From contig CACNYO010000004.1 of the NCBI GenBank assembly GCA_902624765.1, forward strand, positions 1 through 58,341: a stretch of DNA of 58,341 bases, written 5' to 3'. Source of the DNA: an uncultured SAR86 cluster bacterium (GTDB lineage: Bacteria > Pseudomonadota > Gammaproteobacteria > Magnimaribacterales > AG-339-G14). Every line of letters begins with the position of its first letter. Within the stretch, counting starts at the first letter, position 1. This document shows, piece by piece, positions 3,585-9,970 of the stretch. The notes beneath the pieces were generated by a model. That model was not told the origin of the DNA. It did not search any database and saw only the letters and a program-made list of their open reading frames with translations. Both the position numbers and the translations under genes were made by a program.

Positions 3585-4817
3585 TTGAGACAAAACCTTC
3601 CTTTTTTTATTGCTTTAAGATATTTCAATTCTAAAAAGGAAGGATTTCTATCCTTTGTATCTAAATTAACCCTAGGTTCTGTGTCTCTTGGAGTCGCAGT
3701 TCTTATAATAGTTTCTTCAGTTTTTAATGGGTTTGAAAAAGAATTAAAAGAGAAGATATTAAATTCCATTCCACATGGAAATCTTTATGGCTACTCTTCA
3801 ATTTCTAATCCATATGAAATTATTGATTCTCTTTCAGGTATGGATAGACTTGAAGGAGCTGCTCCTTACATTGAAACTCAGTCTCTTATTGGCTCAAAAT
3901 CAAAATTAAAAGGAACGCTTGTATTTGGAGTTAATCCTACTTACGAGTCAAAAGTATCTAATGTTCCAAATAATATGTTCGTAGGATCCTTTGATGATTT
4001 AAGGCAAGGTAGTTTTAATTTAATTCTTGGAGATTTATTAGCTAGACAATTATCTGTAACAGTTGGAGATAAAGTAACTTTACTCTTACCAAATCCTAGA
4101 GTCTCTTTAACAGGAATTTATCCAAAGATGAAAGTTTTTTCTATTTCTGGAATTTATAGTATGGGATCAAATGATTTAGATTCAAATTATGCTTTCATAA
4201 ATATTGATGATGCATCAATGCTTCTTTCATTGTCAGGAAATGTGACAGGCGTGAGATTGAAATTTGATAACCTTTTTGATGCTCCAGATTTAACCTATGA
4301 AGCTCTTATGGTGGCTCAAAATTATTCACAACAACCTCTTAGAGTAAATGATTGGAGCTCTCAGTTTGGAACCCTTTGGAGGGCCGTAGGTATGGAGAGA
4401 AGCCTAGTTTTTTTACTCACGAGCTTAATCATAGTTATTGCTGCCTTTAATGTAGTTGCAATGTTAATGATGATGCTAAATGAGAAAAAAGAACAAATAG
4501 CTATATTAAAAACAGTAGGTATGAGCGAAAGGAAAATTATTCAAATATTTTTGTATCTTGGCTTGATAATTTCATTTTGGGGAATATTTATTGGTACAGT
4601 TTTAGGACTGTTAGTATCTTTTTTTATTGCGTCATCATATTTCGATATTATTATTTCTGGATATTTGGAATGGTATTTCATAAGTTATCTTCCAACGGAC
4701 CTAAGAATTGAATGGATTCTATCAATCATTCTTGGATCATTATTCATCACATCATTTGCAAGTATTTATCCTGCTAGATCTGCTTCAAGAGTCATCCCTG
4801 CCAAAATATTAAGATAA
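3585..4817 (+). CDS. lolC: Lipoprotein-releasing ABC transporter permease, LolC/LolE family
   Basis: FtsX-type permease with N-terminal 'FIALRYFNSKKEGFLSFVSKLTLGSVSLGVAVLIIV' typical of LolC/E; TTG start; followed immediately by LolD. Confidence 0.9.
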   Translation: MRQNLPFFIALRYFNSKKEGFLSFVSKLTLGSVSLGVAVLIIVSSVFNGFEKELKEKILNSIPHGNLYGYSSISNPYEIIDSLSGMDRLEGAAPYIETQSLIGSKSKLKGTLVFGVNPTYESKVSNVPNNMFVGSFDDLRQGSFNLILGDLLARQLSVTVGDKVTLLLPNPRVSLTGIYPKMKVFSISGIYSMGSNDLDSNYAFINIDDASMLLSLSGNVTGVRLKFDNLFDAPDLTYEALMVAQNYSQQPLRVNDWSSQFGTLWRAVGMERSLVFLLTSLIIVIAAFNVVAMLMMMLNEKKEQIAILKTVGMSERKIIQIFLYLGLIISFWGIFIGTVLGLLVSFFIASSYFDIIISGYLEWYFISYLPTDLRIEWILSIILGSLFITSFASIYPARSASRVIPAKILR

Positions 4818-5488
4818 TGAGCTTAGTTATATTGAAAGAAATCGGAAAAGATTTTAATACTGGTGTTAATACAATCTCTCCTTTGAATAGTATTAATCTT
4901 GAGATTAAGAAGAATGATAAGTTAATTATTTATGGGAAATCAGGTTCAGGAAAAACAACACTTTTAAACATTTTAAGTACTTTAGAAATTCCTTCAAAGG
5001 GCTCAATGGTATTTTCAAACGAACCTATAGAATCTTTATCAGACAAAGATCTTTCAAATTTAAGATTAAATGATATTGGTGTAGTTTTTCAATCTCACCA
5101 TTTATTAGATGAATTTTCTCTATATGAAAATATCATTCTTCCAGGATCTATTAATCAAGATTTAGATAAAGACTTTGCGCACTTTCTAATTGAAAAATTA
5201 AAAATTTCAGATAGAAAAAATCACCTACCGGATCAACTTTCTGGAGGTGAAAGACAAAGATGCGCAATCGCAAGAGCATTAATCAATAAACCAAAATTAT
5301 TAGTAATGGATGAGCCTACTGGCGACTTAGATAGAAATACTTCAGATGAGGTTATGGAATTGATAGATAATGTGTTCAACGAGATTGATATTGCTGTCGT
5401 AATTGCAACTCATGATGAAAATTTAAAATTCATGCCAAAATCAAAATATTTGCTTGAACAGGGTAAGCTTAATTTAATACAAGGCTGA
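4817..5488 (+). CDS. lolD: Lipoprotein-releasing ABC transporter ATP-binding protein
   Basis: Walker A 'GKSGSGKTTLL', signature 'LSGGERQR', Walker B 'LLVMDEPTGDLD'; overlaps lolC stop. Confidence 0.92.
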   Translation: MSLVILKEIGKDFNTGVNTISPLNSINLEIKKNDKLIIYGKSGSGKTTLLNILSTLEIPSKGSMVFSNEPIESLSDKDLSNLRLNDIGVVFQSHHLLDEFSLYENIILPGSINQDLDKDFAHFLIEKLKISDRKNHLPDQLSGGERQRCAIARALINKPKLLVMDEPTGDLDRNTSDEVMELIDNVFNEIDIAVVIATHDENLKFMPKSKYLLEQGKLNLIQG

Positions 5489-5530: not shown

Positions 5531-8302
5531 ATGAAAAGCAACACTTCATATCTTGCACGTCTTTTTGGTTATGTTTCCTCTAGCATTCCATATTTTTTGA
5601 TTAGTTTTTTTGGATTTATATTATTTGCAGCAGCTCAAGTTGGGGCAGCAGAATGGCTCAGAAGAATTGTTGATTTCATTGAAAACCCAAATGAGACTGT
5701 TCAATTAATATTACCTTTAGCTTTGATAGCTATTGCCTTAGTAAGAGGAATTGGTTTTTATCTCTCCAATTTCTTTATGGCATTCATTTCAAATAAATTA
5801 ATTCATAATTTAAGGGTAGATTTATTCAAGTCATTAATTTCAATGCCAGTGAGCTTTTATGATAAATCCTCAAGCGGACATTTATTATCAAGAATAACTT
5901 TCAACGTCATGCAGGTAAGCAGCGCGGTAACTGACGCAGTTAAAATTATTATCAGAGAAGGTCTTATAGTAATAGGTCTGCTAGGTTATTTAATTTATTT
6001 GAATTGGAAATTAACTTTAGTATTGATAATTGCAGCTCCTTTGATTGGATTCATTGTCTCCATTGCCGGAAAAAGATTAAGACGTCTTAGTAAAAAAATT
6101 CAATCTGCCATGGGAGACGTAACTCATGTTAGTTCTGAATCTATAAATGCTCATAAAGAATTAAAAATATTTGGCAACGAAAATCTTGAGATCGATAAAT
6201 TTAATGTAGCAAGTGATGCAAATAGAATTCAAAATTTAAAATTAGAATCAACAAATTCAATTGCTTCTCCACTAATTCAGCTAATTATTTCTTTAGCTTT
6301 AGCTTTGATTACATGGTTTGCTTTGGATCCATCTGTAATCACTTCAATGTCATCAGGAACTTTTATAGCTTTTTTTGGAAGCGCAGGAATGCTAGCAAAA
6401 CCTATCAGACAATTATCTTCTACAAACGTTATGTTCCAAAAAGGTATTGCAGCAGCAGAGGATATATTCAAGCAAATTGATGAGACACCCGAAATAGATG
6501 ATGGCTCAAAATCGATTAATGACTCAGAGGGAAGAATTAAATTTGATAATGTCTCTCTTAAATATCCAGGTTCAGGGGAATATTCACTTAAAAATATTAA
6601 TTTTGAGCTAGAAAAAGGATCAAATTTAGCCATTGTGGGAAGTTCAGGTGCAGGTAAAAGTAGCATAATCAACCTTATTCCTAGATTTTATGATGCTACG
6701 GAAGGAGGAATTTCTATAGATGGAATAAAGATTGAAGAACTTTCCTTAGAATCCTTAAGAGATCAAATCTCTTACGTAGGACAAGAGATCACTTTATTTA
6801 ACGATACAATTTTTAACAATATTTTTTATGGAGACATTGATACCAAGGAAGAAGAAGTCTATGAAGCTGCAAAAAAAGCTAATGCTCACCAATTCATTGA
6901 ATCTTTTCCTGATGGATATAAAACAGTCATTGGAGATAATGGAACATTGCTATCGGGAGGACAAAAACAAAGGATTGCCATCGCTAGAGCTATTTTAAAA
7001 AATTCTCCATTTTTAATACTAGATGAAGCGACTTCTGCTTTAGATTCTGAATCTGAAAGATTAATAACGGATGCCATAGCTAATTTAAAAGAAGGAAAAA
7101 CAACAATTACTATTGCCCATAGACTCTCTACCGTTGAACAAGCAGATGAAATTTTAGTTCTTCAAAATGGAGAGATCGTTGAAAGAGGTAAGCACAACCA
7201 ATTAATATTATCTGAGGGTCCTTATTTCCAACTATATAGGAATCAGTTTGACTTTGATGAGGAAACATTAAATATTGATTCTAAATCTAATACTGATCTC
7301 TTGGTAAACATAGAAACATCAAAATCCTACGTTTCTACTTTAGAAAGAGCATGGTACGAGAATAGCTTCTGGCCAAAACTTCTCATCCCTTTTTCTTGGA
7401 TATATCAATTTCTATTTAATAGGCAAAAAAGATATCAAATATCGAATTCATGGAAACCCAATCTTCTCACAATTGTTGTTGGCAACCTTACCGTCGGAGG
7501 AACTGGCAAAACTCCTATAATTATCTATCTTGCAAAATTGCTTAAAGAACAAGGTCTAAAACCAGGAATAATTTCTAGAGGTTATTTAAGTAAGTCTAAG
7601 TCCTATCCATTACTTCTTAAAACAGATACACCAATTGAAGATTCTGGAGATGAGCCAGCTATCATGTTTAGAAACTCACAATGTCCAGTAGTTATAGGGC
7701 CTAATAGAATTCAAGCTGCAAAATATCTTATGGAAAATACGGATAGTAATGTCATTTTAAGTGACGATGGTTTGCAGCATTTTTCGCTTGGACGAGATAT
7801 AGAAATATTAATGATTGATGGAAATAGAAAATTTGGAAATCAACTATTACTTCCTGCAGGACCACTTAGAGAACCAAAATCTAGGGTCAAAACAGTTGAT
7901 TTTATTATCAGCTCAAATAGAAAATGGTCATCTATTGCCAACTACGAAATGAAATATCGACCATTTAAATGGGTACATATGAAAAGCCAAAAAGAATATG
8001 ATATTTTTGATTGGCCTTTAAAAAAAGAAGTTAATGCAGTTGCAGGAATAGGCAACCCATCAAATTTTTTTAATTTATTAAAACAACTCGGATTCGAAAT
8101 CTCTGAATATGCTTTTCCTGATCATCATGACTTTCATAAAGTGGATTTTGAAATAATGGACAATCAACCAACAGTTATGACAGAAAAAGATGCAATTAAA
8201 TGTTCTTTTTTAGATCATACAAATTATTGGTACTTGAAGATAGAAGCCGACGTTTCTGATAATTTCAAAGAAGATTTCTTGGAAGAAATTAAATCAAAAT
8301 GA
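5531..8302 (+). CDS. msbA-lpxK: Fused lipid A export ABC transporter MsbA and tetraacyldisaccharide 4'-kinase LpxK
   Basis: Residues about 1-580: ABC exporter with 'GSSGAGKSSIINLIPRFYD', 'LSGGQKQRIAIARAIL'. Residues about 605-923: LpxK with 'LERAWYENSFWPKLLIPFSWIYQ', P-loop 'VVGNLTVGGTGKTP', 'LSDDGLQHFSLGRDIEI', 'LLPAGPLREP'. One uninterrupted 923-aa ORF. Confidence 0.93.
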   Translation: MKSNTSYLARLFGYVSSSIPYFLISFFGFILFAAAQVGAAEWLRRIVDFIENPNETVQLILPLALIAIALVRGIGFYLSNFFMAFISNKLIHNLRVDLFKSLISMPVSFYDKSSSGHLLSRITFNVMQVSSAVTDAVKIIIREGLIVIGLLGYLIYLNWKLTLVLIIAAPLIGFIVSIAGKRLRRLSKKIQSAMGDVTHVSSESINAHKELKIFGNENLEIDKFNVASDANRIQNLKLESTNSIASPLIQLIISLALALITWFALDPSVITSMSSGTFIAFFGSAGMLAKPIRQLSSTNVMFQKGIAAAEDIFKQIDETPEIDDGSKSINDSEGRIKFDNVSLKYPGSGEYSLKNINFELEKGSNLAIVGSSGAGKSSIINLIPRFYDATEGGISIDGIKIEELSLESLRDQISYVGQEITLFNDTIFNNIFYGDIDTKEEEVYEAAKKANAHQFIESFPDGYKTVIGDNGTLLSGGQKQRIAIARAILKNSPFLILDEATSALDSESERLITDAIANLKEGKTTITIAHRLSTVEQADEILVLQNGEIVERGKHNQLILSEGPYFQLYRNQFDFDEETLNIDSKSNTDLLVNIETSKSYVSTLERAWYENSFWPKLLIPFSWIYQFLFNRQKRYQISNSWKPNLLTIVVGNLTVGGTGKTPIIIYLAKLLKEQGLKPGIISRGYLSKSKSYPLLLKTDTPIEDSGDEPAIMFRNSQCPVVIGPNRIQAAKYLMENTDSNVILSDDGLQHFSLGRDIEILMIDGNRKFGNQLLLPAGPLREPKSRVKTVDFIISSNRKWSSIANYEMKYRPFKWVHMKSQKEYDIFDWPLKKEVNAVAGIGNPSNFFNLLKQLGFEISEYAFPDHHDFHKVDFEIMDNQPTVMTEKDAIKCSFLDHTNYWYLKIEADVSDNFKEDFLEEIKSK

Positions 8303-8994
8303 ATTATGTAGTTATCCCTGCTAGATGGTCCTCATCTAGACTACCTGGAAAACCGTTAATGAAAATTGGTAATAAACCAATGATTCAATGGGTTTATGAA
8401 TCTTGTGAAAAATCTAATGCAGATAAAATATTTGTAGCAACAGACTCTGAAAAGATAAGAGATCAGGTATTAGGATTCAAAGGTGAGGTGATTATGACTT
8501 CCTCTGACCACAATACTGGAACAGATAGAATTTCAGAGGCAATAACAAAAATTAATTGTCATGATGATGACTTAATAATAAATGTTCAAGGCGATGAACC
8601 ATTTATATCTTATAAAGATATCAATACATTGATTGAAAACTTTAAAGATGATTTCGAAATGGCAACTTTATACAAAACTCTCACAAAGGAAGATCAAAAA
8701 GACAAAAATACTGTGAAAATTAATGTTATTGACAATATTGCTACTTCCTTTTCAAGAGATTTTAAATCATCCAGTACCATTCATCATCATTTAGGAATAT
8801 ATGCTTACAGGTGTGACTTTTTAAAAAAATTCGTTAAATATTCTCAGACTGAAAACGAAATTCGTGAAAATTTAGAACAATTCAGAGCTTTAGATAATGG
8901 GCACCGAATAAAGGCATTTAAATCGTATTCTTTAAAAAGTTTTGGTATAGATACAGAAGAAGATTTAAACAGAGCTAATGAAATCGTTAAATAA
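8299..8994 (+). CDS. kdsB: 3-deoxy-manno-octulosonate cytidylyltransferase
   Basis: 'VIPARWSSSRLPGKPL', 'INVQGDEPFI'; overlaps msbA-lpxK end by 4 nt. Confidence 0.95.
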   Translation: MNYVVIPARWSSSRLPGKPLMKIGNKPMIQWVYESCEKSNADKIFVATDSEKIRDQVLGFKGEVIMTSSDHNTGTDRISEAITKINCHDDDLIINVQGDEPFISYKDINTLIENFKDDFEMATLYKTLTKEDQKDKNTVKINVIDNIATSFSRDFKSSSTIHHHLGIYAYRCDFLKKFVKYSQTENEIRENLEQFRALDNGHRIKAFKSYSLKSFGIDTEEDLNRANEIVK

Positions 8995-9970
8995 ATTTCA
9001 ACAATCCTTAAGTTTAAAAGAAAAAAATCTTTTAAAAATTAACTCTGTTGCCAGGTTTTTTATAGAAATATCAGATTTAGATGACTTAAATAGTATTCAA
9101 GATTTTGTCACAGAGAAAAAAATTAGTTTTTGCACTTTGGGAGAGGGGTCTAACGTAGTTCTGCCTAATTTGATTGATAAACTGGTAATTAGTATTTCGT
9201 ACGATGAAATAATAGTTGAAGAAAATTTGATTACAGTTGGAGCTGGAAAAAATTGGGATGATTTTGTTATTTGGTCTTTAAAAAATGGTTATTCAGGACT
9301 TGAAAATTTATCAGGAATACCTGGTAGCGTAGGGGCAGCTCCTATTCAGAATATTGGCGCATATGGAAGTGAAGTTTCACATTTTATTGAAGAAGTAATT
9401 TGTTTTGATGTGGAGCTCAATGAATTTATTAGTTTTACTAATTCCGAATGTAATTTTTCATATAGAAAAAGTATATTTCAAAAACAAAGCTCTTTAGTCA
9501 TCATAAAAGTAAAATTTAAATTAAGTAAAGATTTTATTCCAAATCTTGAATATGAGGATTTAAATTCTTTGAAGGAAGATAATATTTCTCCTAATACGAT
9601 TAGGGAGCATATATTAAAAGTAAGAAATGCCAAGATATCGGATCCAAGAATATGTCCAAATGTTGGGAGTTTTTTTAAAAATCCCATCATCTCACGAAAC
9701 GAATTAGATAAAATAAAACAAATTAATCCAAGCATCAAATATAATTCCTACTTAGACAATAAAGTAAAAATCTCAGCAGCATTTTTGATTGAATCATTGA
9801 ATTTAAAAGGTTTTACTTTAAAAAATGCAAAAGTATCTGACAAACACTCTTTGGTTTTAGAAAACAAATCAGAGAAACCAAAAGATATTCTTGATTTAGC
9901 TTCACATATTCAATCCTTGGTGTTGGATAACTACAATATTAATTTAGAAATCGAACCTCTGATATTTTGA
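8978..9970 (+). CDS. murB: UDP-N-acetylmuramate dehydrogenase
   Basis: 'GEGSNVVLPN', 'GLENLSGIPGSVGAAPIQNIGAYG', 'FSYRKSIFQ'; 17-nt overlap with kdsB. Confidence 0.93.
   Translation: MKSLNKFQQSLSLKEKNLLKINSVARFFIEISDLDDLNSIQDFVTEKKISFCTLGEGSNVVLPNLIDKLVISISYDEIIVEENLITVGAGKNWDDFVIWSLKNGYSGLENLSGIPGSVGAAPIQNIGAYGSEVSHFIEEVICFDVELNEFISFTNSECNFSYRKSIFQKQSSLVIIKVKFKLSKDFIPNLEYEDLNSLKEDNISPNTIREHILKVRNAKISDPRICPNVGSFFKNPIISRNELDKIKQINPSIKYNSYLDNKVKISAAFLIESLNLKGFTLKNAKVSDKHSLVLENKSEKPKDILDLASHIQSLVLDNYNINLEIEPLIF

Follow-up and report, generated by a model that had tools for sequence, protein, structure and literature searches.

An MsbA-LpxK gene fusion is conserved in the marine SAR86 order

MsbA and LpxK are essential proteins of lipopolysaccharide (LPS) synthesis and antibiotic targets, and they are normally separate. 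The window analyzed here, a 58,341-nucleotide stretch of DNA from an uncultured SAR86 cluster bacterium, raises the question of whether the two can be made as one protein, and what such a union would do. SAR86 ranks among the most abundant bacteria of ocean surface waters. At positions 5531–8302 on the forward (+) strand the window carries a single open reading frame of 923 aa, with an ATG start, a TGA stop and zero internal stops, which is kept across SAR86. The first-pass annotation had described this frame as a fusion of msbA with lpxK, and both its coordinates and its description were right, as the frame is open throughout and both domains score above their cut-offs. The ORF is a genuine fusion of a full MsbA, a linker and a full LpxK; the claim that both halves are complete was borne out by matches to TIGR02203 (residues 9–574) and PF02606 (residues 616–919).

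The MsbA half (residues 1–573, positions 5531–7249, + strand) comprises a transmembrane domain and a nucleotide-binding domain (NBD). It scores 672 bits against the MsbA equivalog model TIGR02203 (cut-off 602), is also matched by PF00664 and PF00005, and shares 43% identity with E. coli MsbA over residues 10–573. The Walker A motif GSSGAGKSS (residues 370–378, positions 6638–6664, +), the lysine of which aligns with E. coli K382, is followed by the ABC signature LSGGQ (474–478) and Walker B LILDE (495–499), which together span positions 6950–7027 (+). Alignment of 51 SAR86 fusions showed that the Walker A lysine, signature serine, Walker B glutamate and H-loop histidine were invariant (51/51), and that the Q-loop glutamine was present in 50/51, the remaining one being an X. 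Arginine or lysine occupied the positions aligned with E. coli R78, R148, R296 and K299, which we take to be the basic LPS-binding positions of the pocket, with one X at R78. The SAR86 MsbA half thus resembles E. coli MsbA in being a full-length ABC exporter with the same ATPase motifs and the basic LPS-pocket positions kept, but the E. coli chain stops just past the NBD, whereas the SAR86 chain continues into a linker and a kinase.

The LpxK half (residues 605–923, positions 7343–8299, +) begins with an N-terminal hydrophobic segment. It scores 321 bits against PF02606 (cut-off 27) and 257 bits against TIGR00682 (cut-off 92), and the Aquifex aeolicus LpxK structure 4ehx matches it with an E value of 1.4e-34. 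The P-loop GNLTVGGTGKTP (residues 651–662, positions 7481–7516, +) has G651, N652, G659, K660 and T661 invariant in 51/51 fusions. Equally invariant (51/51) were D707 (positions 7649–7651, +) and H865 (positions 8123–8125, +), which in the 4ehx alignment occupy the positions of A. aeolicus D99 and H261, both catalytic residues. The likeness to the A. aeolicus enzyme therefore extends to the whole domain, the hydrophobic segment, the P-loop and both of these equivalents. The catalytic residues that we checked are intact in both halves, which are probably both active. In nearly all other sampled genomes LpxK is a stand-alone protein (frames mostly 330–400 aa), whereas in SAR86 it forms the C-terminal domain of the flippase.

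We then asked how widely the fused frame is distributed. The nearest named records were SAR86 cluster genomes, and six named SAR86 records had the fused frame. The two-domain architecture that the first-pass annotation had proposed to look for in relatives was found, as a stop-free MsbA-LpxK frame, in 36/36 locus-bearing genomes (of 41, the window's genome and 40 relatives), in four SAR86 families. The SAR86 fusions examined were 44–94% identical to that of the window. When genomes of the order, 0.7–1.8 Mb in size, were surveyed with the LpxK model, LpxK was found in 158/203, and of the matches listed only four did not lie in frames of 892–966 aa. As non-fused exceptions, G134, G152 and G050 were rejected, as contig ends cut their frames, and so was G098, in which a frameshift lies inside MsbA and the junction is continuous. 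In the order's four sampled families no architecture other than the fused frame was found, with all inspected exceptions being contig edges or a frameshift elsewhere. LpxK was not matched in the other 45/203 genomes, but LpxC was still present in 15 of 18 of these that were checked, including all four checked with completeness of at least 90%; since LpxC is mostly retained, assembly gaps fit better than loss of LPS. The single-contig genome G009 had one LpxK and nothing else that scored as a comparable MsbA, so that this genome has no MsbA and no LpxK other than the fusion. No second comparable MsbA was found in the window's genome, a 72%-complete draft.

Across four SAR86 families the gene order was aldehyde dehydrogenase, lolC/E, lolD, msbA-lpxK, kdsB and murB, some genomes having about 1 kb of additional sequence ahead of the fusion. 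In the window, the LolC/E-type permease and lolD lie upstream (3585–5488, +), whilst kdsB, the ATG of which overlaps the stop of the fusion, and murB lie downstream (8299–9970, +). A single LolC/E-type permease gene adjoins lolD both in the window and in G009 (375277–377170), and in G009 one ORF was matched by both the E. coli LolC and LolE queries; this suggests a LolDF-like homodimeric lipoprotein releaser. The E. coli operon has msbA and lpxK in the same order with kdsB nearby, but there they are translated separately, from different frames with a 4-base overlap, whereas in SAR86 they are covalently joined. The SAR86 fusion also sits between lolD and kdsB-murB, in contrast to the co-transcribed ycaI-msbA-lpxK-ycaQ of E. 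coli (PMC10328246).

The complete genome G009 encodes LpxA, LpxB, LpxC, LpxD, LpxH, one LpxL-type acyltransferase, WaaA, KdsA, KdsB and KdsD. LpxL/M-type acyltransferases were present in all 16 sampled SAR86 genomes. In the pathway WaaA and LpxL come between LpxK and MsbA (PMC12444477), so the fusion joins two steps that are not consecutive. When the whole G009 contig was searched by tblastn, E. coli KdsC, LptA and LptC gave zero matches, which may reflect divergence or replacement; KdsA, KdsB, KdsD and LptB queries did match. Glyco_transf_9 heptosyltransferases were not found in 11/16 SAR86 genomes (G009, G010, G011, G026, G029, G094, G103, G155, G027, G030 and G033); the f2 genomes had three each and the g1 genomes one. 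Most SAR86 may therefore have a heptose-less LPS.

The linker DFDEETLNIDSKSNTDLLVNIETSKSYVSTL (residues 574–604, 31 aa, positions 7250–7342, +) is acidic and polar and has no ATG. Among the 51 aligned SAR86 fusions its length stayed at 25–35 aa, and its sequence was replaced almost completely between genera. Within four genera linker dN/dS was 0.11–0.28, against 0.02–0.08 for the domains, and the linker is therefore translated and under mild purifying selection. Judged from known structures, the C-terminus of MsbA lies where the NBD faces the cytosol, tens of angstroms away from the membrane, and LpxK is membrane-associated. A linker of 25–35 residues, roughly 90–120 angstroms when extended, could bridge this distance, which would explain why its length was kept while its sequence was not.

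We consider that these observations as a whole are best explained, with good probability, by a single bifunctional MsbA-LpxK protein which arose once and tethers kinase to flippase. The fusion would have arisen before the diversification of the SAR86 order, when neighboring msbA and lpxK genes lost the stop that separated them, and been retained since. MsbA, the flippase of Kdo2-lipid A, is known as a homodimer, so each flippase would carry two LpxK kinases, as the first-pass annotation had reasoned, each hanging from the C-terminus of an NBD by a flexible linker that may let the membrane-binding N-terminal segment of LpxK reach the inner leaflet. LpxK would then make lipid IVA next to the pump, the molecule would be completed by WaaA and LpxL-type enzymes, and the tethered MsbA would flip it. 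Such a tether would fix a 1:1 ratio and hold together an enzyme at the entry and the pump at the exit of the late pathway, with no direct hand-off, and the joining of non-consecutive steps argues for co-location of this kind. Judged from the sequences, a covalent tether for fixed stoichiometry and membrane co-location is the most likely role, and the tether may bring a benefit. An AlphaFold model built from seven sequences only had a mean pLDDT of 30.1 and a pTM of 0.23.

In the wider class LpxK was mostly stand-alone, in agreement with the statement of the first-pass annotation that the genes are separate in most Gammaproteobacteria, and its gene often followed msbA immediately and in frame, separated from it by one stop, so few mutations would be needed for a fusion. 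Outside SAR86, 7/365 genomes of the class sample (G266, G287, G560, G465, G247, G380 and G395) gave stop-free full-length matches; of these, G266 was set aside owing to an ambiguous base in its linker. The stop-free frames L041, L050, L051, L052, L053 and L054 belong to other gammaproteobacterial families (f89, f157, f49, f166 and f63) and have linkers of 25–50 aa. G566, G495 and G409 also have LpxK in long frames, but these were rejected as fusions: they are open frames of high GC content, and MsbA lies either in a different frame or more than 1 kb away. A phylum-wide sample gave no new stop-free case beyond G287.

A tree built from both domains, with the linker left out, placed the SAR86 fusions in one clade (SH-aLRT 99). 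The fusions of family f157 (G560 and G465, two species) resemble those of SAR86 in being stop-free, full-length MsbA-LpxK frames with a linker of 26–27 aa, but they grouped with the unfused homolog of their own family (L178; SH-aLRT 100), and a single clade of f157 and SAR86 fusions was rejected (AU p 1e-53). The most parsimonious reading of the tree had four changes of state. Phylogenetically, at least two origins of the MsbA-LpxK fusion are secure, and the fusions seen in single genomes outside SAR86 may be further origins, which need confirmation.

The strongest challenge to a beneficial tether is that the stop was simply lost in the SAR86 ancestor, through neutral or streamlining fixation, and that the fused protein is equally good, with nothing gained from tethering; re-splitting would need a new stop, a new start and a ribosome site together. 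We give this a substantial chance, somewhat short of even. It is favored by the same-frame arrangement with a single stop in many other Gammaproteobacteria, one or a few mutations away from fusion, by the small size of SAR86 genomes, by the free drift of the linker sequence and by the scattered and rare occurrence of fusions elsewhere. Against it stand the absence of any reversion in a deep, order-wide clade, a linker length that is held despite replacement of the sequence, and the recurrence of the fusion in other lineages. This challenge concerns benefit and is compatible with a single bifunctional protein, so the likelihoods that we give to the two are not exclusive.

A more elaborate function would be control, in which the NBD of MsbA, through its nucleotide state, governs the attached LpxK and throttles lipid A synthesis when export stalls, replacing LapB/LapC-FtsH control of LpxC. 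LapB and LapC are controllers of LpxC in E. coli. The LapB Zn-ribbon was above cut-off in none of 16 SAR86 genomes, G000 and G009 included (there was one weak, sub-threshold match), and neither LapB nor LapC had a match in the complete G009, suggesting that control of the E. coli type may be missing from SAR86. The non-SAR86 fusion genomes searched retained LapB-model Zn-ribbon matches, some of them probably RadA, which makes the link between fusion and loss of LapB weak, and we think that a regulatory role of this kind is unlikely.

It could also be that two proteins are made after all, either by cutting of a polyprotein in the exposed linker or by making LpxK from an internal start as well. 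A hydrophilic and variable linker is what a cut site might look like, and the window's fusion does have an in-frame TTG at codon 591 (positions 7301–7303, +). This is the only in-frame ATG, GTG or TTG in residues 540–665, it was judged not to be a start, as its match to the Shine-Dalgarno consensus is at most 3 nt, and the codon is not kept even within the genus; the first-pass annotation had likewise seen no linker ATG, one TTG without a Shine-Dalgarno sequence and no obvious separate start for LpxK. No conserved in-frame start was found near the junction in the 51 SAR86 loci. Between residues 574 and 650, 41/51 loci had no ATG, and five (L009, L010, L011, L013 and L139) had zero ATG, GTG or TTG codons in residues 540–665. 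LpxK is therefore not generally made alone by internal initiation, and a separate LpxK from an internal start was rejected. Nor was a conserved cleavage motif visible in the 51 aligned linkers, and the fusion protein probably stays uncut after translation. Production of two proteins is, in our judgement, distinctly improbable.

The first-pass annotation had also proposed substrate channeling. In its direct form, lipid IVA would pass straight from the tethered LpxK into MsbA, and this we hold to be very unlikely. The two sites are covalently linked, and the 11 SAR86 genomes without heptosyltransferases would leave few steps between them. WaaA in G009 and the acyltransferases found throughout the sampled genomes nevertheless intervene, as these enzymes modify lipid IVA, or its Kdo form, ahead of export (PMC12444477), and the position of the joined steps argues against direct hand-off. 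What probably stands of the proposal is co-location by a covalent tether.

That the fusion is an artifact of assembly or binning joining two genes, a chance read-through or a sequencing error can be dismissed even for a window from a 37-contig, 72%-complete draft, because the fused frame recurs in 36 genomes and six named records and the same junction is found in many independent SAR86 assemblies, including the single-contig genomes G009, G028, G029, G030 and G033.

MsbA and LpxK are each well known, but their covalent fusion is not described in the literature that we found. The first-pass annotation had allowed for the fusion being already documented as common. Common it is, being found throughout SAR86 and again in other lineages, yet our literature search found no paper describing it; it may show in domain databases. 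A paper on the cultured SAR86 isolate HIMB1674, which reports a closed genome, does not discuss it in the passages found (PMC11582366). For annotation pipelines that assign one name to such an ORF the case calls for caution, and for structural work it offers a natural 1:1 kinase-flippase construct. It also makes physical coordination between lipid A synthesis and export testable, where the usual approach is through LpxC degradation. The occurrence of the covalent fusion throughout an order dominant in the ocean, and of at least one that arose independently elsewhere, provides natural evidence that LpxK is able to function next to MsbA.
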